NCBI GenBank assembly: GCA_029552825.1
Contig: JAKPDL010000224.1
Coordinates: 1-64,000, forward strand
Origin: Bacteroidota bacterium
GTDB lineage: Bacteria; Bacteroidota; Bacteroidia; Bacteroidales; VadinHA17
DNA length: 64,000 bases
Direction: 5' to 3'
How positions within the stretch are numbered: the first letter of the stretch is position 1; each line of letters opens with the position of its first letter. Position numbers and translations under genes: made by a program. The notes below the pieces were generated by a model, which worked only from the letters and a program-made list of their open reading frames with translations, had not been told where the DNA came from and did no database searches. Shown in pieces: positions 30,608-43,013 of this stretch.

Positions 30608-32188
30608 ATGGATGATAAATTGGACAATTCAGTTAATTTTCATAAGCACAGCTCTTTAAGATGCTGTTGCGGAAACACTGACATGGGGCATCAGGGCATC
30701 AGCAGGCGAAAGTTTGTGCAGATGACAGGTGCCGGCACTCTTGGTATAATAACAATTCAGAGGCTTACATGGGATATGCTGGCCAATGAAAGGCCAGTAG
30801 ATGAATATCTTCCAGCAAGGCAACCTCTGGTTGTCAAACCTGTTCTCACCTATGAAGTGCCTGAAAGGAGGGAGAAAACAAGCTGGAGAGCATGGGGTGG
30901 AATACAGACCGAAAATGACGCCTCGGCTGAAATAGCAAGAATTAACAGCGAGCTTAAAAAGCTAAAATCTGATGCTGATTTTCCGGTTGATTTTCTTCCT
31001 GTCTCTGCTGTACGGAGCCGGCAGGATCTGGCCGGAATAACTGACATAGACAGGGCAGATCTGATTCTTATATATGCTGCTGGTGGCGGCATGAATATTT
31101 TTGCAGAATTAAACAGCAGGGGGAAAGATATTATTTTCTTCTGCCGCCACAGGTCTGGTCCGGTTTATCTCTGGTATGAGATAATAAGTCCGCGTTACCT
31201 TCGCCAGCATACAGATGAATTGAAAGTTAAAGGGGTTGATGACAGTGATGTTGTTATTGACAGCCAGGATGAGCTCTTGTGGCGGATGAGGGCACTATGT
31301 GGGCTGAAAAACACAAGAGGTTCAAGAATTCTAGCTATAGGAGGTTTCGGAGCATGGTCGCAGCCGCTCGAAACAACAATGAAAATGGTAAAGGAGCATT
31401 ACAACTTTGAAATAAGGGATATATCTTATGAAAATCTCGGGAATCTGATTAAAGAAGCAAGGGAAGACAGGGCACTCGTTAAGCAGGCAAAAAGCAGTAG
31501 TGACAGATATCTGGCAGATACCGGGATTAAGCTTGAAACTGAAAGAAAGTATGTGGAGAATTGTTTCGTGCTCGGGGAAGTTTTTCGCAGGCTTATGGAA
31601 AGGGAAGGATGCAGGGCAATAACTGTTAATAATTGCATGGGAACAATTATGCCGATTGCTGATACAACAGCCTGTCTTACACTCAGTCTTCTCAACGATG
31701 CCGGATTCCTGGCATTCTGTGAATCGGACTTTGTAGTTATTCCTGCTGGCATCCTGCTGGCTAACATATCAGGCAAACCATCATTTCTGAATGATCCTAC
31801 ATATCCACATGATTGGCTCATTACTCTTGCACACTGCACTGCTCCGCGCAGAATGAATGGAATAACGCTTGAGCCTGCACGAATAATGACCCATTTTGAG
31901 TCAGATTTCGGAGCCGCTCCTAAGGTCGAAATGAAAAAAGGCCAGGTTGTGACAAATGTCATACCTGATTTTGAATTCAGAAAATACATCGGTCTTCCCG
32001 GCAAGATTGTTGAAAATCCGTTTATGGACATTTGCCGTTCACAGATTGAAGTGAGCTTTTCGTGTGAGAGCGAAAAGGTGGCAAAAAATATGCGAGGTTT
32101 TCATTGGTTGACTGTATATGGTGATTATTTAAAAGAAACCGGATATGCCTTAAAGAAAATAGGGATAGAGTTTGAAATTCTGACTTGA
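30608..32188 (+). CDS. Tat-exported protein, sugar-isomerase-like
   Basis: A 526-residue protein with a twin-arginine signal (SRRKFVQMTGAGTLGII) after a long 31-residue n-region that includes a CCCGN cluster. The C-terminal half resembles the L-fucose/arabinose isomerase fold (NNCMGTIMPIADTTACLTLSLLNDAG, FCESDF, THFESDFGAAP). Metal-ligand residues Glu/Asp/His appear to be present. The substrate is unknown and the similarity is distant, so function remains open. The gene stands alone on the plus strand ahead of the hydrogenase cluster. Confidence 0.7.
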   Translation: MDDKLDNSVNFHKHSSLRCCCGNTDMGHQGISRRKFVQMTGAGTLGIITIQRLTWDMLANERPVDEYLPARQPLVVKPVLTYEVPERREKTSWRAWGGIQTENDASAEIARINSELKKLKSDADFPVDFLPVSAVRSRQDLAGITDIDRADLILIYAAGGGMNIFAELNSRGKDIIFFCRHRSGPVYLWYEIISPRYLRQHTDELKVKGVDDSDVVIDSQDELLWRMRALCGLKNTRGSRILAIGGFGAWSQPLETTMKMVKEHYNFEIRDISYENLGNLIKEAREDRALVKQAKSSSDRYLADTGIKLETERKYVENCFVLGEVFRRLMEREGCRAITVNNCMGTIMPIADTTACLTLSLLNDAGFLAFCESDFVVIPAGILLANISGKPSFLNDPTYPHDWLITLAHCTAPRRMNGITLEPARIMTHFESDFGAAPKVEMKKGQVVTNVIPDFEFRKYIGLPGKIVENPFMDICRSQIEVSFSCESEKVAKNMRGFHWLTVYGDYLKETGYALKKIGIEFEILT

Positions 32189-32570: not shown

Positions 32571-33044
32571 ATGGTAAAGAATAAAAAAACTCTGGTTCTT
32601 GGTATTGGAAATACAATACTTTCGGATGATGGAATCGGCCCAAAAATTATCCGCGATCTTTCTTTGGTGTTTGATGACAATAATATTAGTTTTAAGGAAG
32701 CCTGCTGTGGAGGTATTGAAATAGCAGAACTGATTTCAGGATATGACTGTGTGGTTTTTATTGATGCAATCCATACAGGGGAAGGCAAACCTGGAGATGT
32801 TTATTTTTTTGATATTTCTGACTTCAGGGAGACAATACATCTATCCAATGTCCATGATTTAAGTTTTATTACTGCCATTGAACTTGCTAAATCTCTCGGA
32901 ATGGACCTTCCAGCGAGTATAATTATTGTCGGGGTTGAAATACTTACAGATTCAGAATTTGGTGAAGAGCTCTCACCACCATTAAAAGAAAGATATGAAA
33001 CAATACTTGAAGAGGTTAAAACCTTTGTAAAAGGATTGGTGTAA
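32571..33044 (+). CDS. [NiFe]-hydrogenase maturation endopeptidase
   Basis: A 157-residue HybD/HycI-type protease that removes the C-terminal peptide of the large subunit after nickel insertion. It has GIGNTILSDDGIG near the start (Asp20 in the nickel-ligand position), FIDAIH (Asp65) and SNVHDL (His95), matching the three ligands of HybD. Its natural target is the MvhA-like subunit 2.4 kb downstream, which retains a 26-residue C-terminal extension. Other hydrogenase maturation genes (hypA-F) are not in the window. Confidence 0.92.
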   Translation: MVKNKKTLVLGIGNTILSDDGIGPKIIRDLSLVFDDNNISFKEACCGGIEIAELISGYDCVVFIDAIHTGEGKPGDVYFFDISDFRETIHLSNVHDLSFITAIELAKSLGMDLPASIIIVGVEILTDSEFGEELSPPLKERYETILEEVKTFVKGLV

Positions 33045-33232: not shown

Positions 33233-33673
33233 ATGAGTTCAAAAGCAAAAATTCTGGTTGTCGAGGACGATGCAGACCTTGTAGCTGCAATAGTTAAAAT
33301 GCTGGAAGTAAAAGGTTATGAAGTTGCATGTGCATATGATCCTCAGGAAGGATGGGAAAAACTGAAGATTCATGTGCCTGACCTGATCATTCTTGATGTA
33401 ATGTTTGGAGCTAAAGGCGAATCAAAAGGCTTTGATTTTGCACAGAAAGTAAGGCTTGACAGGCAATACTCGCACATTCCCATTCTGATGATCACCGCAA
33501 TTAATGCTCAGAAGCCTTATTTTAACTTTTCACCCGAAACAGATGCTGAGTTTCTTCCGGTGGATTCCTTTATTGAGAAGCCGGTCAGATCTGAGGAATT
33601 GTTTCTTAAAGTCGAAGAACTTCTGCAGCAGAAAGTTAGTAAGTGGCATAAATGGCCTGAAAAAAATAGTTGA
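33233..33673 (+). CDS. Receiver-only response regulator
   Basis: A 146-residue CheY-like receiver without an output domain. The acidic pocket is EDD (11-13), the phospho-acceptor Asp55 (LIILDVMFG), the conserved Thr/Ser switch lies in LMITAI, and Lys116 in IEKPV. A loop insertion (FGAKGESKGFDF) follows Asp55. A strong ribosome site, GGGAGGG, precedes the start. It probably relays or binds a partner and not DNA. The histidine kinase at 41664-43013, on the far side of the hydrogenase genes, is a likely partner. Confidence 0.9.
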   Translation: MSSKAKILVVEDDADLVAAIVKMLEVKGYEVACAYDPQEGWEKLKIHVPDLIILDVMFGAKGESKGFDFAQKVRLDRQYSHIPILMITAINAQKPYFNFSPETDAEFLPVDSFIEKPVRSEELFLKVEELLQQKVSKWHKWPEKNS

Positions 33674-33997: not shown

Positions 33998-34423
33998 ATG
34001 GAATTCAAGCCACGGATAGTTGCGTTTTTATGTAACTGGTGTTCATACACCGGTGCTGATCTTGCAGGAACCTCAAGGATGGAATATAAGCCCAATGTCA
34101 GGATAATCAGAGTGATGTGTTCCGGGCGGGTTGAGCCGACTTTTGTCCTTAAAGCATTTGCAAATGGTGCTGACGGAGTGCTTATATGTGGTTGCCACCC
34201 TGGCGACTGCCATTACCAGGAAGGTAATTACCGCTGCCTTCGCAGGTATTTGCTGCTTCAGAAGTATATCAGACAAATTGGAATTGAACCTGAACGCCTT
34301 AAACTGGAATGGATAAGTGCCAGTGAAGGGAAGCAGTTTGCTGAGCTGGTCAATAGTTTCACTGAAAAAATTAAAGAGCTGGGGCCAAGTAAAATTAAAG
34401 ATACAATCAGAACATTTGCCTGA
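33998..34423 (+). CDS. mvhD: MvhD-like iron-sulfur electron-transfer subunit
   Basis: A 141-residue [2Fe-2S] protein that links the hydrogenase to HdrA in methanogen Mvh-Hdr complexes. Its cysteines fit the family: Cys12 and Cys15 ([10 protein letters not shown]), Cys41 (VMCSGRV), Cys64, 66 and 71 ([10 protein letters not shown]) and Cys80. It is the first gene of the operon; mvhG starts 17 bases after it. As an independent subunit it differs from QmoB proteins, where an MvhD domain is fused to HdrA. Confidence 0.94.
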
Positions 34424-34440
34424 TTTAAAAACAAGAACCC

Positions 34441-35415
34441 ATGGAAGAAACAAAACCAAAGTTAAAACTGGCTGTATACTGGGCAGCTGCATGCGGTGGC
34501 TGCTGTGTATCGGTTCTCGATGTACATGAAAAGTTGTTTGATATTATCTCTGCTGCGGATCTGGTATTCTGGCCTATAGCCCTTGATACCAAATACCATG
34601 ATGTTGAAAAAATGCCTGATGGATATATTGATATAACACTTTTTAATGGGGCAATAAGGAACACTGAAAATGAAGAGATGGCAAAGCTTTTAAGGAAAAA
34701 AAGCAAAATTCTTGTTGCCTATGGGAGTTGTGCTCATCTGGGTGGTATTCCCGGACTTGCCAATTTTACAACAAAGGATGAAATATTTAAAAGAGTATAC
34801 TTTGAAAGTGAATCAGTAGTGAATGAGAAGAACTTAATTCCGGTTCCTGAATACAAGGCAGAAGAAGGTACACTTTTCCTGCCTTCGTTTTATAATGATG
34901 TAAGGGCTCTGTCGCAGGTTACCGAACCGGATTACTATTTACCGGGATGTCCACCCCAGAGTGAAAGGTTGCTCGAGGTTTTCAAAGCAATTGTAAGTGG
35001 TGCGGAACTGCCTCCCAAAGGTTCGGTTATTGGAGCTGAAACAAAGACCCAGTGTGATGAATGTATACGTAAAAAGACTGAGAACAAGCGTATAAAGAAG
35101 TTTTACCGCCCCTGGGAAATTAAGGATGATGGTATTACATGTTTTATGGAACAGGGAGTTTTGTGCATGGGACCTGCAACAAGGGCAGGATGCGGGTACC
35201 GTTGTATAAAAGGTAATGCTCCATGCAGGGGATGTTATGGTCCGCCGCCGGGCGTCCCTGACCCGGGAGCCAAGATGATGTCGGCCGTTGCAAGCATTAT
35301 TGATGAGAAAGACCCTGAAGGGATAAACAAAATTCTTGAAGATTTGGCAGATCCTGCCGGTACTTTTTATCGTTTTAGCCTTCCAGTGTCATTGATAAGA
35401 AGAAAAATTTTATGA
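34441..35415 (+). CDS. mvhG: [NiFe]-hydrogenase small subunit, MvhG-like
   Basis: A 324-residue iron-sulfur subunit. The proximal cluster ligands are in CGGCCVS (Cys18, Cys21), YGSCAHLGG and LPGCPP. The C-terminal part holds two further clusters (CDECIRKK, GPATRAGCGYRCIKG, CRGCYGP). No Tat signal is present, so the enzyme is cytoplasmic, as in group 3 hydrogenases. Its stop overlaps the mvhA start by four bases, so the two subunits are made together. Confidence 0.94.
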   Translation: MEETKPKLKLAVYWAAACGGCCVSVLDVHEKLFDIISAADLVFWPIALDTKYHDVEKMPDGYIDITLFNGAIRNTENEEMAKLLRKKSKILVAYGSCAHLGGIPGLANFTTKDEIFKRVYFESESVVNEKNLIPVPEYKAEEGTLFLPSFYNDVRALSQVTEPDYYLPGCPPQSERLLEVFKAIVSGAELPPKGSVIGAETKTQCDECIRKKTENKRIKKFYRPWEIKDDGITCFMEQGVLCMGPATRAGCGYRCIKGNAPCRGCYGPPPGVPDPGAKMMSAVASIIDEKDPEGINKILEDLADPAGTFYRFSLPVSLIRRKIL

Positions 35416-36875
35416 AAAGAATTACAATTGATCCCATAACCCGCCTTGAAGGTCATGGAAAAATTGAGATTTTCCTTGATGAAGAAGGTGAAGTAAAGAA
35501 TGTGTTTTTTCAGGTACCTGAACTAAGGGGCTTTGAGAAATTTTGTGAGGGAAGGCCTGCTGAGGAACTTCCTTCCATAACAGCAAAGATTTGCGGTGTA
35601 TGTCCCGGTTGTCACCATATGGCTTCCGGCAAGGCTGTTGATGCGGTGTTCGGTCTGGTTCCTCCAGCTACTGCCAGAAAGCTGAGGGAACTTTTTTATA
35701 TGGCCCATTTTATTCACAGCCATACAGCACATTTTTATGCACTGGCGGCACCTGATTTTGTCCTTGGGCCTGGTGCACCACCCGAAAAAAGAAATATTGT
35801 GGGTCTGATTGAGAGAGTGGGTAAAGAGATAGGTACAGAAGTCATTAGGCAGCGTAGAATAGCCCAGGAGATACAGGCCCTTCTCGGTGGTCACCAGACA
35901 TTTGTTGTGATGAATATCCCTGGAGGCGTACGAAGAGGACTCTCGGAAGCTGAACGAGACTATGTTGTTGAAAAGGCAAAAGGATTTGTGGAATTTGCTC
36001 AGTTTACCCTTAAAATATTCAATGATTTTGTACTTGGAAATAAAGATTATGTCGATCTGATAGTTAACGGGCCTTATAAGTTAACGCTTCATTCCATGGG
36101 GCTGGTTGATGCTGACAACAGGGTAAATTTTTATGATGGGAAGGTAAGAGTTGTTGATACCCATGGAAATGAGTTATGTAAATATGGCCCGGATGAATAC
36201 CTCGAATATGTGGCAGAACATGTTGAACCATGGAGTTATCTTAAGTTTCCGTATCTTAAAAAAATAGGGTGGAAAGGTTTTATCGACGGACAGGATTCGG
36301 GAGTATATCATGCAACGCCGTTATCAAGACTGAATGCAGCAGATGGGATGGCTACTCCTCTGGCACAGAAAGAATACGAACGAATGTATTCAACTCTCGG
36401 AGGTAAACCTGTTCATGCTACACTTGCAATGCATTGGGCAAGACTTGTAGAACTTTTATATTCAGCCGAACGCTGTCTCGAACTTGCTATGGATCCCGAT
36501 ATAACCGGAAGTGAACTGAGGGCTGAGCCCGGCCCCATTGTTGGAGAAGGTGTTGGAATTGTCGAAGCCCAGAGGGGAACATTAACCCATCATTACTGGA
36601 CAGATAAAAAGGGCATTATTACCAAAGCCAATATCATTGTTGGCACAACAAACAACAATGCAGCGATCTGCATGTCAATCAAGAAAGCATCGGAAGGATT
36701 AATAAAGAAAGGAATTGTTGTTGACCAGGGCATTCTTAATATGATTGAAATGGCTTTCAGAGCATATGACCCATGCTTTTCGTGTGCAACACACAGTTTA
36801 CCGGGACGAATGCCATTTATTTTAGAAATCCGTGATGCTAACGGAGGATTGTTACAGAAGATAAAAAGGGATTAG
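35412..36875 (+). CDS. mvhA: [NiFe]-hydrogenase large subunit, MvhA-like (group 3c type)
   Basis: A 487-residue catalytic subunit. All four nickel-ligating cysteines are present: Cys61 and Cys64 in KICGVCPGCHH (with His68), and Cys455 and Cys458 in DPCFSCATH. After His461 a 26-residue tail remains for removal by the maturation protease encoded at 32571. Context with mvhD and hdrA points to group 3c; the L1 motif has Lys where many groups have Arg. It splits H2 or makes it, passing electrons through MvhG and MvhD to the HdrA proteins that follow (37-base gap). Confidence 0.95.
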   Translation: MKRITIDPITRLEGHGKIEIFLDEEGEVKNVFFQVPELRGFEKFCEGRPAEELPSITAKICGVCPGCHHMASGKAVDAVFGLVPPATARKLRELFYMAHFIHSHTAHFYALAAPDFVLGPGAPPEKRNIVGLIERVGKEIGTEVIRQRRIAQEIQALLGGHQTFVVMNIPGGVRRGLSEAERDYVVEKAKGFVEFAQFTLKIFNDFVLGNKDYVDLIVNGPYKLTLHSMGLVDADNRVNFYDGKVRVVDTHGNELCKYGPDEYLEYVAEHVEPWSYLKFPYLKKIGWKGFIDGQDSGVYHATPLSRLNAADGMATPLAQKEYERMYSTLGGKPVHATLAMHWARLVELLYSAERCLELAMDPDITGSELRAEPGPIVGEGVGIVEAQRGTLTHHYWTDKKGIITKANIIVGTTNNNAAICMSIKKASEGLIKKGIVVDQGILNMIEMAFRAYDPCFSCATHSLPGRMPFILEIRDANGGLLQKIKRD

Positions 36876-36912
36876 TTTTCAGAATGAGAAACGTAATAAT
36901 AAATAAATAAAC

Positions 36913-38715
36913 ATGCGAACAGGAGTCTTTTTCTGTCAGACTGCTTCAGCAGGTACCCTGAATATTGATGCAATAGCAAAATATTCAGCCAATCTGCCAG
37001 AGGTTGAAACCGTACAGATACTCAGGGTTGAGCCTTATCCGGATTTAAAATTTCTTAGTGATACAATAAAGGCATATAATCTTGAACGTATTGTAATTGC
37101 AGGAGAAACACCCGGATATTACAAACCATTATTAACCAGGGCAGTGGCCATGGCAGGAGGCAATACAGATGAGATATATCTGGCATCTTTTCAGGAACAT
37201 GGAGCAAGAGGAGAGAATGCACTCGACCGTGCCAAAGCAATTGTAGCCTGTGCTGTAATGGGTGTTCCATTCCCTCTTGCTGCAATACCTGGCGGAAACC
37301 CGGTTAACCATGCAACCCTCATAATCGGTGGTGGGATTGCCGGTATTCAGGCAGCCCTTGAAATAGCAAATGCAGGTAAATTGGTTTATCTCGTTGAACA
37401 AACAGGTACAATAGGAGGGCATATGGCAATGTTCGACAAGACATTTCCGACACTCGATTGCGCCGCCTGCATACTAACTCCCAAGATGGTATCAGTTGGA
37501 CAACATGAGATGATTCGCCTGATGACAAAGTCGAAGGTTATTGCTGTTACCGGAAAACCGGGTTCTTACAGGGTTAAAATAAAACAGGCGCCACGCTATG
37601 TTGATATTAAATCGTGTGTGGCATGCAGCGAGTGTGCCGATGTTTGTCCTGTTAAGGTAAAAAGTGAATTTGATGCCGGTATATCAATGCGTAAAGCTAT
37701 TTACATTCCTTTTCCTCAGGCCGTTCCGAATGCTTACCTGATTGATGAAAACAGCTGTACATACCTGCTCTCCGAAGGAAAAAAATGCGGAGTATGTGCA
37801 AAAAAATGTCCCAAGGAGTGCATCAATTTCAATGAGAAAGAGCAGATTATAGATATTGAAGTTGGCAATATTATACTGGCTACCGGATACGAGATGCTTG
37901 ATGCCAGTAAGATTGAGCAGTATGGATACGGGGTATATCCTAATGTTCTTACATCTCTTGAATTTGAGCGTTTAACAAATGCTTCCGGAGTTACAGGGGG
38001 CAGGATTGTGACCAAAACGAAGGTATTCAACAAGAAAACCAATAAGGAAGAATGGATTTTTTCACCTGAGGGCGTTCCACCGCGCAGCATAGCGCTTATA
38101 CATTGTGTAGGATCAAGAAGTAGAAAATATAACCCTTATTGCTCGCGCGTATGCTGCATGTATTCGTTGAAATTTGCGCATCTTATCAGGGAAAAAGTTC
38201 CGAATGCCAGTGTTTATGAATTTTATATCGATATGAGGGCATTCGGTAAGGGATATGAGGAATTTGCCGAGAGAATAAAGCAGGAGGGAACATTTGTTGT
38301 AAGGGGCCATTCAGCTTCGGTTACAATGAGCCATGGCAAAATGTATGTAAAAGGTGAGGATATTATCAATGACAGACTGGTTCAATTCGAGGTTGACATG
38401 GTTGTACTGGCAGTGGGGCTCATCCCTTCACAGGGTACTGAGGAACTGAGCAGGATGCTTGGAATACGACGTGACAGTGACGGATGGTTTTCGGAGCTTG
38501 ATTATAACGGAAGTCCAACCGACACAGATAAAGGTGGAATATATGTTGCCGGAATGTGCCAGGGACCAAAAGATATCCCGGATACTGTTGCACAGGCTTC
38601 GGCTGTGGCTGCAGGTGTCCTTAAGAGTTTAACAAGCGGTAAAGGACTTGGACATTTGAGCAGCCTTTCACTGAGTGAAATCGAATCAAGAGCTAAAGCA
38701 TTGCATAAAATATAA
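36913..38715 (+). CDS. hdrA: HdrA-like flavoprotein 1 (lacks N-terminal cluster cysteines)
   Basis: A 600-residue FAD protein of the HdrA/QmoA family. The FAD motif is IIGGGIAG (137-144), followed by LDCAAC (Cys183, 186) of the unusual HdrA cluster and an inserted ferredoxin domain with two [4Fe-4S] sites (Cys235, 238, 241, 245 and Cys282, 292, 295, 299). The N-terminal domain is recognisable but degenerate: FCQTASAG replaces CxCG, and the later cysteines (in YMCSxPG and ACSPxxHE of relatives) are gone. It has no C-terminal ferredoxin. These losses are exactly complemented by the paralogue at 39892. Probably the central flavin subunit. Confidence 0.92.
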   Translation: MRTGVFFCQTASAGTLNIDAIAKYSANLPEVETVQILRVEPYPDLKFLSDTIKAYNLERIVIAGETPGYYKPLLTRAVAMAGGNTDEIYLASFQEHGARGENALDRAKAIVACAVMGVPFPLAAIPGGNPVNHATLIIGGGIAGIQAALEIANAGKLVYLVEQTGTIGGHMAMFDKTFPTLDCAACILTPKMVSVGQHEMIRLMTKSKVIAVTGKPGSYRVKIKQAPRYVDIKSCVACSECADVCPVKVKSEFDAGISMRKAIYIPFPQAVPNAYLIDENSCTYLLSEGKKCGVCAKKCPKECINFNEKEQIIDIEVGNIILATGYEMLDASKIEQYGYGVYPNVLTSLEFERLTNASGVTGGRIVTKTKVFNKKTNKEEWIFSPEGVPPRSIALIHCVGSRSRKYNPYCSRVCCMYSLKFAHLIREKVPNASVYEFYIDMRAFGKGYEEFAERIKQEGTFVVRGHSASVTMSHGKMYVKGEDIINDRLVQFEVDMVVLAVGLIPSQGTEELSRMLGIRRDSDGWFSELDYNGSPTDTDKGGIYVAGMCQGPKDIPDTVAQASAVAAGVLKSLTSGKGLGHLSSLSLSEIESRAKALHKI

Positions 38716-38725
38716 ACAGAATTCT

Positions 38726-39883
38726 ATGGCTATCAGAGTTAATCCTGAGTTTATCAATGAGCTTGACCGCTTTGGTGCAGAAGATGTTCAGCTATGTTAC
38801 CAGTGCGGAGATTGCTCCACTGTCTGTCCTCATGCAGATGAGGTGTACAGGTTTCCCAGAAAATCTATGAAACTGCTTCAGATGGGCCTTGAGCAGAAAA
38901 TAGAAACTACTCTGGAACCATGGCTTTGCTACTATTGCGGGCAGTGTTCTGAACAATGTCCGAGGGAAGCTGATCCCGGTGAAACGATGATGAGCCTCAG
39001 GAGATGGCTGATCTCAAAATATGATTTTACCGGTATTTCAAGGGCTTTCTATAAATCGAGAACTGTTGAGGTTTTAACAATTATTTTCGTGGCAATACTC
39101 ACCGGAGCCCTTCTGCTCTATTACGGATTTACAAACGGTAATATCGGTATCTACGACGGTGAAGGAGCATTTCTTCCAAGCCATTTTGTTCACAGGTTTG
39201 ACCTTAGCGTAGGTGCAATCTTGCTCGTTTTTCTTCTTATTAATGCTTTCAGGATGTGGAAAATGGTTATGGTCAGGGGAACAAATTTTCCGGTACCATG
39301 GTGGTTGTATATTAAAAAGTTTTACCAGCTTCCGTGGCATTTTTTCACTCAGAAACGCTATTCGGAGTGTGAAAAAAAACGTGGTCATAAAATCTATATG
39401 CCGTGGCTGATTCACCTCGGACTGATGCTCGGATATGTTACAATGCTTGTGCTGGTGATGGTTTTCGTTGAATTGCTTCAAAAGGGTCCGGAAATAAGAT
39501 GGGAAGTACATGTCTTTGGTTATCTGGCCACAATAGGACTATTGGCGGGAACTATCTATTTCATCAGAGGACGTTTTAAAAAACATTATATTCAGTATAA
39601 AAAATCACATGGTACTGACTGGGTTTTTGTGATTCTCCTGTTTATGATTGTTATAACCGGAATTTCACAGCATATTTTTCACCGTACCGGTTTGATTGAA
39701 ATGGCCAATATAACTTATGTTATTCACCTGATGAGTGCTGTGCCATGGCTTTTAAGAATGCCGTTTACAAAATGGGCTCATCTTGTTTACCGGCCTCTTG
39801 CAATGTATTTTGCATCAATCAGACGTGAAGCAATTGAAAGGGATACAGCAGTTAAAGAATTATATCCTCTTGTAATTAAATAA
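38726..39883 (+). CDS. QmoC-like membrane subunit (HdrC-HdrE fusion)
   Basis: A 385-residue protein from the ATG at 38726; the frame extends 17 codons upstream but only inside the hdrA1 gene. The N-terminal part has two [4Fe-4S] motifs, CYQCGDC...CP (Cys24, 27, 30, 34) and CYYCGQC...CP (Cys68, 71, 74, 78), as in HdrC. The rest has about six TM helices with several His residues in or near the membrane (HFVHRFDL, LIHLGLML, SQHIFHR, VIHLMS), as in NarI/HdrE haem-b proteins. This is the QmoC architecture. It would pass electrons from the HdrA pair to menaquinone, or the reverse. Confidence 0.9.
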   Translation: MAIRVNPEFINELDRFGAEDVQLCYQCGDCSTVCPHADEVYRFPRKSMKLLQMGLEQKIETTLEPWLCYYCGQCSEQCPREADPGETMMSLRRWLISKYDFTGISRAFYKSRTVEVLTIIFVAILTGALLLYYGFTNGNIGIYDGEGAFLPSHFVHRFDLSVGAILLVFLLINAFRMWKMVMVRGTNFPVPWWLYIKKFYQLPWHFFTQKRYSECEKKRGHKIYMPWLIHLGLMLGYVTMLVLVMVFVELLQKGPEIRWEVHVFGYLATIGLLAGTIYFIRGRFKKHYIQYKKSHGTDWVFVILLFMIVITGISQHIFHRTGLIEMANITYVIHLMSAVPWLLRMPFTKWAHLVYRPLAMYFASIRREAIERDTAVKELYPLVIK

Positions 39884-39891
39884 CCTTTACT

Positions 39892-41631
39892 ATGGAAAAT
39901 CTCAGAATTGGTGTTTATATATGCATGTGCGGGACCAATATTGCAAAGATTGTTGATGTTGAAGCTGTTGCAAAATTTGCATCAGAAGTTCCCGAAGTGG
40001 TTCTGGCAAAAAGTTATAAATACATGTGTTCCAATCCGGGTCAGGAAATGATAATTCAGGATATTAAAGAAAATAACCTGAACAGGATTGTTGTTGCAGC
40101 CTGCAGCCCCAATATGCACGAGCGCACATTCCGGAGCGCATTGCGTATAGCAGGGCTGAACCAGTATCTGCTTGAAATGGCAAATATCAGGGAACAGTGT
40201 AGCTGGGTTCACTCCGATCCTGTTGAGGCCACCGAAAAAGCAAAAGCACTTGTTAATGCAGCCATCTCCCGTGTTAAACTTCATGAGGAACTGGAGAGTG
40301 TATCCGCCCGGATGTGCCCCAATGTTCTTGTTATAGGCGGAGGAATAGCAGGGATGACTGCTGCACTTGAACTTGCAGATGCAGGAAATACCGTTTATCT
40401 GGTTGAAAAAGAAAATCACCTTGGAGGCAACCTTGCCAGGGTCGACCTTACAGCACCTTATCTCTATTCGGCAAGAGATTTGTTGACTGAAAGAATAACA
40501 AGGATTAACAACAATAAAAACATAAAGGTATTCTTAAGTTCCAAAGTAACAAGCCTCACCGGATACATCGGAAACTTCAGAGCCGTAATTCAAAACCTTG
40601 TTTCTATTCAGGAGGGTAAAACAAGAGATACTGAAGTTGAAATCGGTAATGTAATTGTATGCACGGGATACAAGGAATTTGATGCTTCACGCATTGTACA
40701 CTACGGATACGGAAAACTGCCAAACGTCATCACTTCATTTGAATTTGAAAAAATGCTTCGGGCAGGCAGGATCGAGACAAAGGAAGGAAAAACTCCGAAG
40801 TATGTAGCAATTATTCACTGTGTAGGAAGCAGAAGTCAGGAATTTCATTCATATTGTTCAAGAGTATGCTGTATGACAGCACTAAAATATGCTCATGAAA
40901 TCAAATCAGCAATTCCCGACTGCTATGTTTCTGATATATACATAGATATGCATGCTTTTGGCAAAGGGCATGAAGATTTTTACCGCAGTTCCTCACAGGC
41001 AAAAACTCTTTTCCTGATGTACGAAAAGGGTGACCGACCTGTAATTCACAAGGCAGGGCCAAAGGATGATTGTGGGATGCTGATTGAAGTGAATGAAAAA
41101 CTTTCGGGCGAAACAATTGAAATTCCTGCAGACCTCGTCATACTTATGGTGGGGATGGAAGCAAGGGAAGATGCCTATGAAGTGGCAAGGATAGTGAATA
41201 TAAGTCAGGATAAAGAAGGATGGTTCATTGAAAGCCATCCAAAGCTTGAACCTGTTGCTACCACAACTGATGGTGTTTTTATTGCCGGTACATGTGTGGC
41301 TCCTAAGGATATTCCGGATACTGTTGCTCAGGCAAGGGCAGCTGCTGCAAGAATCCTTGCACGAATAGCGAAAGAAAAAATTGAAATTGATGCACTCTAT
41401 TCAGAAGTGAATCCAAATCTGTGTTCGGGATGTCGCCTCTGCAACCTTCTCTGTCCTTACAGCGCTATAGAGTTTCTTGAAGATAAAAAACAGAGTCATA
41501 TTATCAGTGCTCTCTGCAAGGGATGCGGAGTGTGTGTAGCAGCCTGCCCCTCATCAGCAATTAAAGGAAGACATTTCACCGACCAGCAGATTCTCGCTCA
41601 GGTTGAAGGATTACTGGCTGAGAAACTGTAA
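39892..41631 (+). CDS. hdrA: HdrA-like flavoprotein 2 (QmoB-like, without MvhD domain)
   Basis: A 579-residue paralogue of HdrA. The N-terminal cluster domain is intact: Cys11 and Cys13 (YICMCGTNI), Cys46 (YMCSNPGQ), Cys71 (ACSPNMHER) and Cys103. FAD motif VIGGGIAG ends at 154. The LDCAAC segment and the inserted ferredoxin found in HdrA1 are missing; instead, two C-terminal [4Fe-4S] motifs follow (CSGCRLCNLLCP and CKGCGVCVAACP, about 505-556). It resembles QmoB but has no fused MvhD domain, which here is a separate gene. It starts 8 bases after the QmoC-like gene. Confidence 0.92.
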   Translation: MENLRIGVYICMCGTNIAKIVDVEAVAKFASEVPEVVLAKSYKYMCSNPGQEMIIQDIKENNLNRIVVAACSPNMHERTFRSALRIAGLNQYLLEMANIREQCSWVHSDPVEATEKAKALVNAAISRVKLHEELESVSARMCPNVLVIGGGIAGMTAALELADAGNTVYLVEKENHLGGNLARVDLTAPYLYSARDLLTERITRINNNKNIKVFLSSKVTSLTGYIGNFRAVIQNLVSIQEGKTRDTEVEIGNVIVCTGYKEFDASRIVHYGYGKLPNVITSFEFEKMLRAGRIETKEGKTPKYVAIIHCVGSRSQEFHSYCSRVCCMTALKYAHEIKSAIPDCYVSDIYIDMHAFGKGHEDFYRSSSQAKTLFLMYEKGDRPVIHKAGPKDDCGMLIEVNEKLSGETIEIPADLVILMVGMEAREDAYEVARIVNISQDKEGWFIESHPKLEPVATTTDGVFIAGTCVAPKDIPDTVAQARAAAARILARIAKEKIEIDALYSEVNPNLCSGCRLCNLLCPYSAIEFLEDKKQSHIISALCKGCGVCVAACPSSAIKGRHFTDQQILAQVEGLLAEKL

Positions 41632-41663: not shown

Positions 41664-43013
41664 ATGGAAGAAAAGCTGGTTCCGGCACATATATTCTTCC
41701 TGAGATGGTTTATCAGAATCAGGTGGATAGCTGTTTCAGCATTGATTGCCTCAGATTTTATTGTTTCACATTTTCTGAACATATCTGTCGAGGAAGATAA
41801 AATCTATATTATCGCCGGAATTCTTTTTTTACTTAACGTTTTTCACTGGATTGTTCTCAGGAGAATAAACAGAGATTCGGGTGCCAATGTTATAGGAAGG
41901 ATAAAAAGAAATATCCATTTTCAGATAATAACTGATCTGATCCTGCTTACATTCGTTATACATTATTCGGGGGGAATAGAAAATCCCCTGATATTATTCT
42001 ATTTTTTTCATCTTATTATTGCAAGTTCAATATTCTCGACCTTTCTGAGCTACCTGTATGCTGCCTTTGCTTTAATACTGGCTTTGTCGCTGAGTTTTCT
42101 GGAATGCTTTCAGATTATCCCCCATTATCCTCTGGAGGGATTTGTTAATCACGAACTTTATAAAAATGTTCTGTACGTCTCAGGTGCAGGTTTTGTATTT
42201 GCATGTACATCTGTTATGGTTGTATGGCTCTCTCATATGATTATTAACCGGTCGATAAAAAGTGAAGAGACATACGTTAGAACGAATATTGAGCTACAGA
42301 ACAAAGACAAGCTTAAAAACGAATATGTTCTGAGGGTTACACATGACATTAAAGGACATGTTGCTGCTGTCATGAGTTGTCTTGAAGTTGTCAGGTCAAA
42401 AATAACAGGGTCGCTTAACGAGGTTCAGGAAGAATTTATTAACCGGGCTTATGATAGGGCGGAATTTCTTTCGGAATTCATAAGAGATTTACTCAACCTG
42501 ACGAAAAAAAGACTTCAACGTAACGTTGAATTTGAGGATTTCAACCTTGCAGAACTTATCAACCGGGTAGTTGCTCCTGTTCAGATTCTTATCAGCGACA
42601 AAGGAATTAATTTCAATATATATGTTGACAGTTCGGTCGGGATTATCAGAGGTAATCCATATGCTATAGAGGAACTTTATTCGAACCTTTTGCTTAATTC
42701 TGTAAAATATACCCCTGGTGGAGGTCATATCGAACTGACGATTAGACGGCGTATGAACTATATTATATCTGAAATTTCAGATTCAGGTATCGGGATCCCT
42801 AAAGATGAAATCCCGAAAATATTTGATGAATTTTACAGGGCATCAAATGTTCAGCGCGATGTAAAATCCGGAACAGGGCTTGGTCTTTCAATCGTAAAGG
42901 AAATTGTCGATAGGCATAAGGGAAAAATAAAAGTAGAAAGTGAAGAAGGAGTGTGGACTAAATTTACAGTTATGCTCCCTGTTAATCCGGAAGAACTTTC
43001 AACCTCAACCTGA
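41664..43013 (+). CDS. Membrane sensor histidine kinase
   Basis: A 449-residue kinase. Five or six TM helices fill residues about 12-195 with no recognised ligand domain, so the sensor may be membrane-embedded. The H box is RVTHDIKGHV with phospho-acceptor His227; N box NLLLNSVKY, G1 DSGIGIPKDEI, F and G2 GTGLGLSIVK are complete. It follows hdrA2 by 32 bases and is likely in the same transcript. With the receiver-only regulator at 33233 it brackets the hydrogenase genes, suggesting control by redox or quinone state (inference). Confidence 0.92.
   Translation: MEEKLVPAHIFFLRWFIRIRWIAVSALIASDFIVSHFLNISVEEDKIYIIAGILFLLNVFHWIVLRRINRDSGANVIGRIKRNIHFQIITDLILLTFVIHYSGGIENPLILFYFFHLIIASSIFSTFLSYLYAAFALILALSLSFLECFQIIPHYPLEGFVNHELYKNVLYVSGAGFVFACTSVMVVWLSHMIINRSIKSEETYVRTNIELQNKDKLKNEYVLRVTHDIKGHVAAVMSCLEVVRSKITGSLNEVQEEFINRAYDRAEFLSEFIRDLLNLTKKRLQRNVEFEDFNLAELINRVVAPVQILISDKGINFNIYVDSSVGIIRGNPYAIEELYSNLLLNSVKYTPGGGHIELTIRRRMNYIISEISDSGIGIPKDEIPKIFDEFYRASNVQRDVKSGTGLGLSIVKEIVDRHKGKIKVESEEGVWTKFTVMLPVNPEELSTST

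Follow-up and report, generated by a model that had tools for sequence, protein, structure and literature searches.

In a 64,000-nucleotide stretch of DNA from a Bacteroidota bacterium (hereafter the window; positions 1 to 64,000 of contig JAKPDL010000224.1, which is contig C89 of 97.6 kb in a draft genome of 3.38 Mb and 97.6% completeness), we found six head-to-tail genes at positions 33998–41631 in the order mvhD, mvhG, mvhA, hdrA1, qmoC-like and hdrA2. Open reading frames and family models agreed on this set and order, which an earlier inspection of the letters (the sequence-only reading) had proposed. Judging from the encoded proteins, we hold it reasonably probable that the operon specifies a reversible, probably flavin-bifurcating H2:menaquinone/ferredoxin oxidoreductase, built as one membrane-anchored complex.

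The six genes proved to be conserved as a unit. A scan of genome contigs with a QmoC alignment gave 534 confirmed stretches, the best 80 of which correspond to 79 loci (handles beginning with L), and the gene content of these loci was determined by tblastn with the window proteins followed by classification. All six genes were present in 40 of the 79 QmoC-relative loci, a separate order-blind count giving the same 40, and the HdrA1-QmoC-HdrA2 order (the trio) was kept in every one of them. Thus, the gene grouping is not due to chance; that the set is unique to the window genome was ruled out. This search, which the sequence-only reading had suggested, revealed HdrB-type genes in the fetched flanks of two of the 40 (L023 and L052). 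The 40 loci bear seven phylum labels: Bacteroidota (24), Acidobacteriota (5), Actinomycetota (4), Krumholzibacteriota (2), Sumerlaeota (1), Chlorobiota (1) and Myxococcota (1, titled Deltaproteobacteria), with two unlabelled (titled Aminicenantes). MvhDGA precedes the trio in 15 of them, including the window (type 1), and follows it in 25, which comprise type 2 (other Bacteroidota and one Chlorobiota) and the other phyla. Seven further loci, each at a contig end, contain the trio with a portion of Mvh. Five have the trio but lack MvhG/A: L054 and L058 contain Flx-like genes, L040 adjoins a second, Mvh-bearing operon, and L038 and L064 are close to contig ends. The remaining 27 show other layouts or are truncated. 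Among 247 genomes drawn from the window's class, four had a QmoC relative at 1e-20, with Mvh genes adjoining the QmoC locus in the window genome, G141 and G172; in G159, Mvh genes were not seen in the 20 kb around the QmoC relative.

MvhD (33998–34423, + strand), the [2Fe-2S] adapter between hydrogenase and HdrA, matched Pfam FlpD at 2.3e-58 and, by phmmer, methanogen MvhD (5odc_D) at 1.7e-54 over query residues 2–137 of 141. MvhG (34441–35415, +), the hydrogenase small subunit, matched the VhuG model (1.2e-63, 215 bits), and MvhA (35412–36875, +), the [NiFe] large subunit, matched the VhuA model with 390.8 bits and has methanogen MvhA (5odc_F, 2.2e-117) as its nearest solved relative. From the MvhA-like protein, in which both CxxC metal-site motifs are present (CGVC at residues 61–64 and CFSC at 455–458), and its MvhD partner, MvhDGA is predicted to be a group 3c-like [NiFe] hydrogenase. 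Elsewhere (L156, L157 and L158), MvhDGA genes (MvhA 62–65% identical) have as neighbours genes that by eye resemble NuoE and NuoF, together with one for an HdrA-like protein 586–588 residues long; the open reading frames there carry no CCG motif, and these loci represent a further set of Mvh partners, apparently without HdrB.

The two HdrA proteins were found to be complementary in their domains and cluster ligands. HdrA1 (36913–38715, +), QmoA-like by ligand pattern in family models and in the alignment to methanogen HdrA (5odc_A), has a flavin adenine dinucleotide (FAD) domain, an inserted ferredoxin domain and the equivalent of Cys197, and lacks the N-terminal cluster set and the C-terminal ferredoxin domain. 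It aligns to residues 5–568 of 5odc_A, inserted ferredoxin domain included, and its AlphaFold model (mean predicted local distance difference test score (pLDDT), 83.6) has methanogen HdrA as its top Foldseek matches. HdrA2 (39892–41631, +), QmoB-like by the same kinds of evidence, has an N-terminal CxCG domain, an FAD domain and a C-terminal two-cluster ferredoxin domain, and lacks the inserted ferredoxin domain and the Cys197 equivalent; it aligns to methanogen HdrA in two main pieces, skipping the inserted domain and keeping the C-terminal one. The term "split HdrA pair" in the sequence-only reading was therefore apt, a different ferredoxin domain being missing from each protein. According to the accessible text of PMC9012536, one ligand of the N-terminal cluster of methanogen HdrA, Cys197, is supplied by the second HdrA copy, electrons enter through the C-terminal ferredoxin domain, and HdrBC and the inserted domain are the proposed exits. 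In our alignment, Cys197 of 5odc_A corresponds to Cys186 of HdrA1 and to an Asp of HdrA2; the N-terminal cysteines 11, 13, 46 and 71 are kept by HdrA2, and HdrA1 has at most one of them (Cys8 in the window). This full reciprocal split was observed in 45 of 45 scorable Mvh-linked HdrA1-HdrA2 pairs (48 including the window, less L035, L051 and L096, which were too short as extracted), HdrA1 retaining the Cys197 equivalent and 8 inserted-domain cysteines and HdrA2 the 4 N-terminal and 8 C-terminal ones. The split predicts that HdrA1 and HdrA2 must pair as an obligate heterodimer, and each heterodimer would hold a single entry for electrons from H2, a single exit to ferredoxin and a single cluster shared between the subunits.

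The ligand split was the same in the Desulfobacteria Qmo-type loci L083 and L086, and less clean in other Qmo-like loci; it is thus a trait common to QmoAB-like pairs. Lys409, the lysine next to the flavin, is kept by HdrA1 and HdrA2 alike in the scorable Mvh-linked pairs; among Qmo-type loci, the HdrA2-like subunit has K at this position in five cases and H, Q or R in twelve. A separate locus (L167, 1682–10414) encodes a QmoC-like protein, a 1490-residue protein with HdrA1-like and HdrA2-like parts, and then MvhDGA; the long protein was not used as a natural A1-A2 fusion, there being about 400 extra residues between its halves.

The QmoC-like protein (38726–39883, +; NCBIfam qmoC, 198.1 bits) joins an HdrC-type domain with two CxxCxxCxxxC motifs to a membrane domain. 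The 8 cysteines of the two [4Fe-4S] motifs and the membrane-domain histidines 247, 312, 333, 351 and 369 are invariant in 37 aligned sequences, and the closest relatives found, at 74–77% identity, come from Bacteroidales metagenome genomes. Its predicted structure (mean pLDDT of 80.7, weak at about 45–61) combines a small head with long helices, and Foldseek returned HdrC for it at probability 1.00 but with an E value of 0.014 at best. The intergenic gaps from mvhD to hdrA2 were 17, −4, 37, −41 and 8 bases when the open frame of qmoC was begun at GTG 38675. ATG 38726 is the more likely start, corresponding to an aligned Met that begins the protein in three of four QmoC relatives compared, and with it the 41-base overlap with hdrA1 disappears. 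In two other type-1 operons (L067, 3178–4284, and L069, 3166–4293), QmoC alone belongs to another subfamily, with 50–51% identity to the type-2 reference and 45–46% to the window, as if this one gene had been exchanged.

On these grounds, an Mvh hydrogenase would be docked on a membrane-anchored, Qmo-type core of HdrA1, HdrA2 and QmoC. H2 would be split at MvhA, and the electrons would travel via MvhG and MvhD into HdrA2, entering at its C-terminal ferredoxin domain, and on to the FAD of the HdrA1-HdrA2 heterodimer. There the path would divide, one branch leading through the HdrC-like clusters of QmoC and haem b to menaquinone and the other, by way of the ferredoxin domain inserted in HdrA1, to soluble ferredoxin. 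We infer the assembly, the direction of flow, the quinone acceptor, the haem and the bifurcation from the predicted proteins. The genome encodes RnfC (6.8e-32) with Rnf-like neighbours, NuoEF-linked and Mrp-linked [NiFe] hydrogenases (named by eye) and [FeFe] hydrogenase domains at five places, and these genes fit a ferredoxin-using, H2-cycling anaerobe as the host. Rnf and the Mrp-linked hydrogenase are users of ferredoxin, in line with the proposed second branch.

Several points weigh against this assignment. The scores of MvhG, MvhA and the QmoC-like protein lie below the cut-offs of the VhuG (450), VhuA (800) and curated qmoC (300) models; the Foldseek match of the QmoC membrane part to NarI is weak (E 3.3); HdrA homologs need not bifurcate; and many Bacteroidota carriers of the operon also have an HdrB-bearing cluster, a point that we counted against exclusivity and not against the complex. 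The same complex might work without bifurcation, as a simple H2:menaquinone oxidoreductase in which the ferredoxin domains do no more than relay electrons. QmoC would be a complete exit to quinone, and flavin bifurcation is a prediction; yet the 8 inserted-domain cysteines, forming the proposed ferredoxin exit of methanogen HdrA, are all conserved in 45 of 45 HdrA1 proteins, and Lys409, beside the flavin, is kept in both HdrAs; we regard this reading as unlikely. Lower still do we rank a complex running mainly in reverse, in which menaquinol and reduced ferredoxin would be confurcated to H2 for electron disposal in syntrophy. The presence of Rnf and of other hydrogenases, both [NiFe] and [FeFe], would suit such operation, and by our own estimate, with menaquinone at about −74 mV, the balance lies near 0.2 Pa H2, or above that value should ferredoxin be in a more reduced state in the cell. 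The E0' values are −420 mV for ferredoxin and −414 mV for H2, as given in the accessible part of PMC5861303. Reverse running, however, requires very low H2, and the gene data leave the direction unfixed.

The statement in the sequence-only reading that HdrB is absent from the operon was borne out, no HdrB family match (Pfam/NCBIfam) being found among the six genes. An HdrB-like gene is present elsewhere in the genome, on contig C135, in a cluster of HdrC, HdrB, HdrA (339 residues), HdrC2 and a 650-residue protein with Fer4_8 and two CCG domains (L012, 5821–10882), the gene order of which is like that of sulfur-oxidation Hdr sets. This HdrB was found in 21 of 37 genomes examined (36 carriers and G159), that is, in 17 of 23 other type-1 genomes (L024 by a partial match), three of eight type-2 genomes, one of five from other phyla (L052, 31% identity) and not in the one without Mvh, and in the class in two of 247 genomes, the window genome and G141, both operon carriers. 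With an HdrB hidden Markov model (HMM), nine of 20 carriers had no match at 1e-10, including G172 (96% complete), in a set of 15 genomes chosen as earlier negatives, the window genome and four new ones, all subject to the fact that draft genomes can miss genes; the other 11 gave putative HdrB hits. An hdrB gene co-conserved elsewhere, named beforehand as evidence against the idea, was therefore seen in part, 17 of 23 type-1 genomes against two of 247 standing opposite the nine carriers lacking a match. In L052, the HdrB-type gene belongs to a separate HdrC-HdrB-HdrA-Mvh set on the opposite strand, and the genome of L023 carries an HdrC-HdrB pair some 4 kb beyond the operon.

The operon could, on this evidence, be the input arm of a larger disulfide-reducing system that uses the C135 HdrC-HdrB-HdrA-HdrC2-650aa cluster, to which both the enrichment of its HdrB among carriers (21 of 37, against two of 247) and the nearby pair in L023 would point. 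We consider this very improbable, since nine of 20 carriers, albeit in a sample enriched for earlier negatives, lack an HdrB match, the C135 cluster has its own HdrA, and shared ancestry or niche may explain the co-occurrence. C135-type clusters with an HdrA of about 340 residues and a last protein of about 610–650 residues are conserved in Bacteroidota (L126, L129 and L130). A second HdrC-HdrB pair, situated about 4 kb past the Mvh operon in L122 (9173–11019), was also observed near ParA/MRP-like ATPases and NifX-like small proteins in L122, L123, L124, L125, L127 and L128, a neighbourhood that by eye we take to be an ORP-like set. The absence of AprAB and DsrMK noted in the sequence-only reading held for the part covered: in a search of the genome for AprA and DsrA, though not for AprB, DsrB or DsrMK, AprA gave a single weak match (27.9 bits, cut-off 641.75) and DsrA gave no match at E 0.001. 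A Qmo complex serving sulfate reduction was rejected, AprA and DsrA not being found. The suggested link to nrfHA turned out to be weak: other genes lie between nrfHA and the operon in the window, and with NrfH/NrfA relatives in the fetched flanks of one of 79 loci (L026), NrfHA was rejected as a dedicated partner.

The trio also occurs next to another set of donor genes. In two Acidobacteria loci (L054, 193–8051, and L058, 4897–12893), Flx-like genes replace MvhGA, the trio lying downstream of an MvhD relative and three further genes, which in L058 encode an iron-sulfur protein, a Fer4_22 protein and an FAD/NAD-binding protein. The electron donor there is therefore probably NAD(P)H, and the exchange of MvhGA for the Flx-like set points to a general role of HdrA-QmoC as an adapter to quinone.

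The two parts of the type-1 operon also differ in their affinities. Mean identities (%) of type 1 to type 2 and to the other phyla were 72 and 61 for MvhD, 70 and 53 for MvhG, and 78 and 60 for MvhA, as compared with 51 and 62 for HdrA1, 41 and 53 for QmoC, and 54 and 68 for HdrA2, the ranges overlapping for MvhD, HdrA1 and QmoC. In a root-free tree of the concatenated trio (33 rows), type 1 was nested among the other phyla, with L044 as its sister (support 89), and a single clade of the other phyla and the two Flx loci was rejected (p 0.012), as was a clade of the other phyla by themselves (p 2e-73). In the concatenated hydrogenase tree (31 rows), the other phyla formed one clade (support 100) and the type-1 hydrogenase grouped with other Bacteroidota/Chlorobiota. 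These were quick trees sampling 10 of 20 type-1, 8 of 13 type-2 and 13 of 14 other-phylum loci and two Flx rows, with odd letter make-up in nine trio rows and a long branch for L062; single-gene trees rooted with distant outgroups left the alternative grouping unrejected (approximately unbiased test, p 0.172 for MvhG and 0.142 for HdrA2). The type-1 operon thus looks chimeric, as if a trio from outside had been reassembled with a resident hydrogenase. Tentatively, at somewhat less than even confidence, we propose a family of HdrA complexes, bound to the membrane and widespread in bacteria, that would bifurcate to menaquinone and ferredoxin, with swappable donors (MvhDGA for H2, FlxABCD for NAD(P)H), an obligate heterodimer keeping each entry, exit and inter-subunit cluster once, and the window copy as a chimera of two lineages.

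Similar gene content has been described in Archaeoglobi. According to the accessible text of PMC10945360, Ca. Methanoglobus (hypatiae and nevadensis) has a highly transcribed Mvh-Qmo-Hdr set of MvhAGD, two HdrA and QmoC fused to HdrC, with no HdrB in the cluster, for which H2 bifurcation to menaquinone and ferredoxin is proposed, citing Buessecker 2023. Since both the gene content and this idea are already published, the window set is not unprecedented; the H2:menaquinone oxidoreductase of the sequence-only reading agrees with the operon anatomy (H2 input, HdrA flavins, a QmoC membrane exit and a possible ferredoxin branch) and with its conservation. By comparison with the published description, the window set occurs in Bacteroidota and other bacterial phyla in two gene orders, its ligand split is tabulated for bacterial pairs, and the window genome has an HdrB-like gene on C135, whereas the archaeal type is defined by no HdrB in the genome. 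The split, the chimeric window operon and the Flx-like donor swap go further than what is published. HdrABC-MvhADG of methanogens (5odc) shares MvhDGA, the HdrA domains and an HdrC-like domain, but has a single HdrA with both ferredoxin domains instead of two complementary subunits, and HdrB where the window set has a membrane module. QmoABC of sulfate reducers shares QmoC and two HdrA-type subunits with the same split (L083 and L086), but the window order is A1-C-A2, the N-terminal domain is kept on A1, and MvhD is a separate gene accompanied by a hydrogenase, in a genome where AprA was not found. FlxABCD-HdrABC offers an alternative MvhD-type input module, as in the Flx-like sets of L054 and L058, the output here being QmoC and not HdrBC. 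In their accessible parts, PMC12008871 mentions a QmoC/HdrA/Mvh complex, citing Buessecker 2023, PMC4053972 bacterial Mvh with HdrA and without HdrB or HdrC, and PMC7380581 Archaeoglobi with MvhADG and HdrA and without HdrB; the six-gene set does not appear in those of PMC10553843, PMC6085437, PMC3685469, PMC2702500, PMC12142623, PMC5165239 and PMC8542988. No bacterial report of it was found in the full-text literature, most subscription papers lying outside the search. The HdrA bifurcation systems reviewed in the accessible part of PMC5861303 end on heterodisulfide or methylene-tetrahydrofolate.

Around the operon, a gene for a membrane histidine kinase (41664–43013, +; HATPase_c 7.4e-29), a probable operon member or regulator, starts 32 bases after hdrA2; in 15 of the 79 loci a relative is encoded no more than 1.5 kb beyond HdrA2, although in L033 the match is short. 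Upstream lie a stand-alone response regulator (33233–33673, +; family match), with relatives upstream of mvhD in L021, L022, L023, L026 and L035, and a HycI-type hydrogenase maturation protease (32571–33044, +; TIGR00072, 95.9 bits, cut-off 47.45), with same-strand relatives near 25 of 40 six-gene loci. Neither promoter-like sites (25, against 24.4 in shuffles) nor terminator-like sites (8, against 8.2) were in excess. A 526-residue protein with a twin-arginine-like start (30608–32188) was matched by neither Pfam nor NCBIfam models at E 0.001.

Collectively, the gene set is real, conserved and modular, and its role is most likely that of an H2:menaquinone/ferredoxin oxidoreductase. The reciprocal split provides a sharp and inexpensive test of electron transfer in HdrA dimers, in which one HdrA1 cysteine should serve the HdrA2 cluster. 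If the reading is true, the respiratory quinone pool would drive the reduction of ferredoxin with H2, in a bacterium in which AprA and DsrA were not found.

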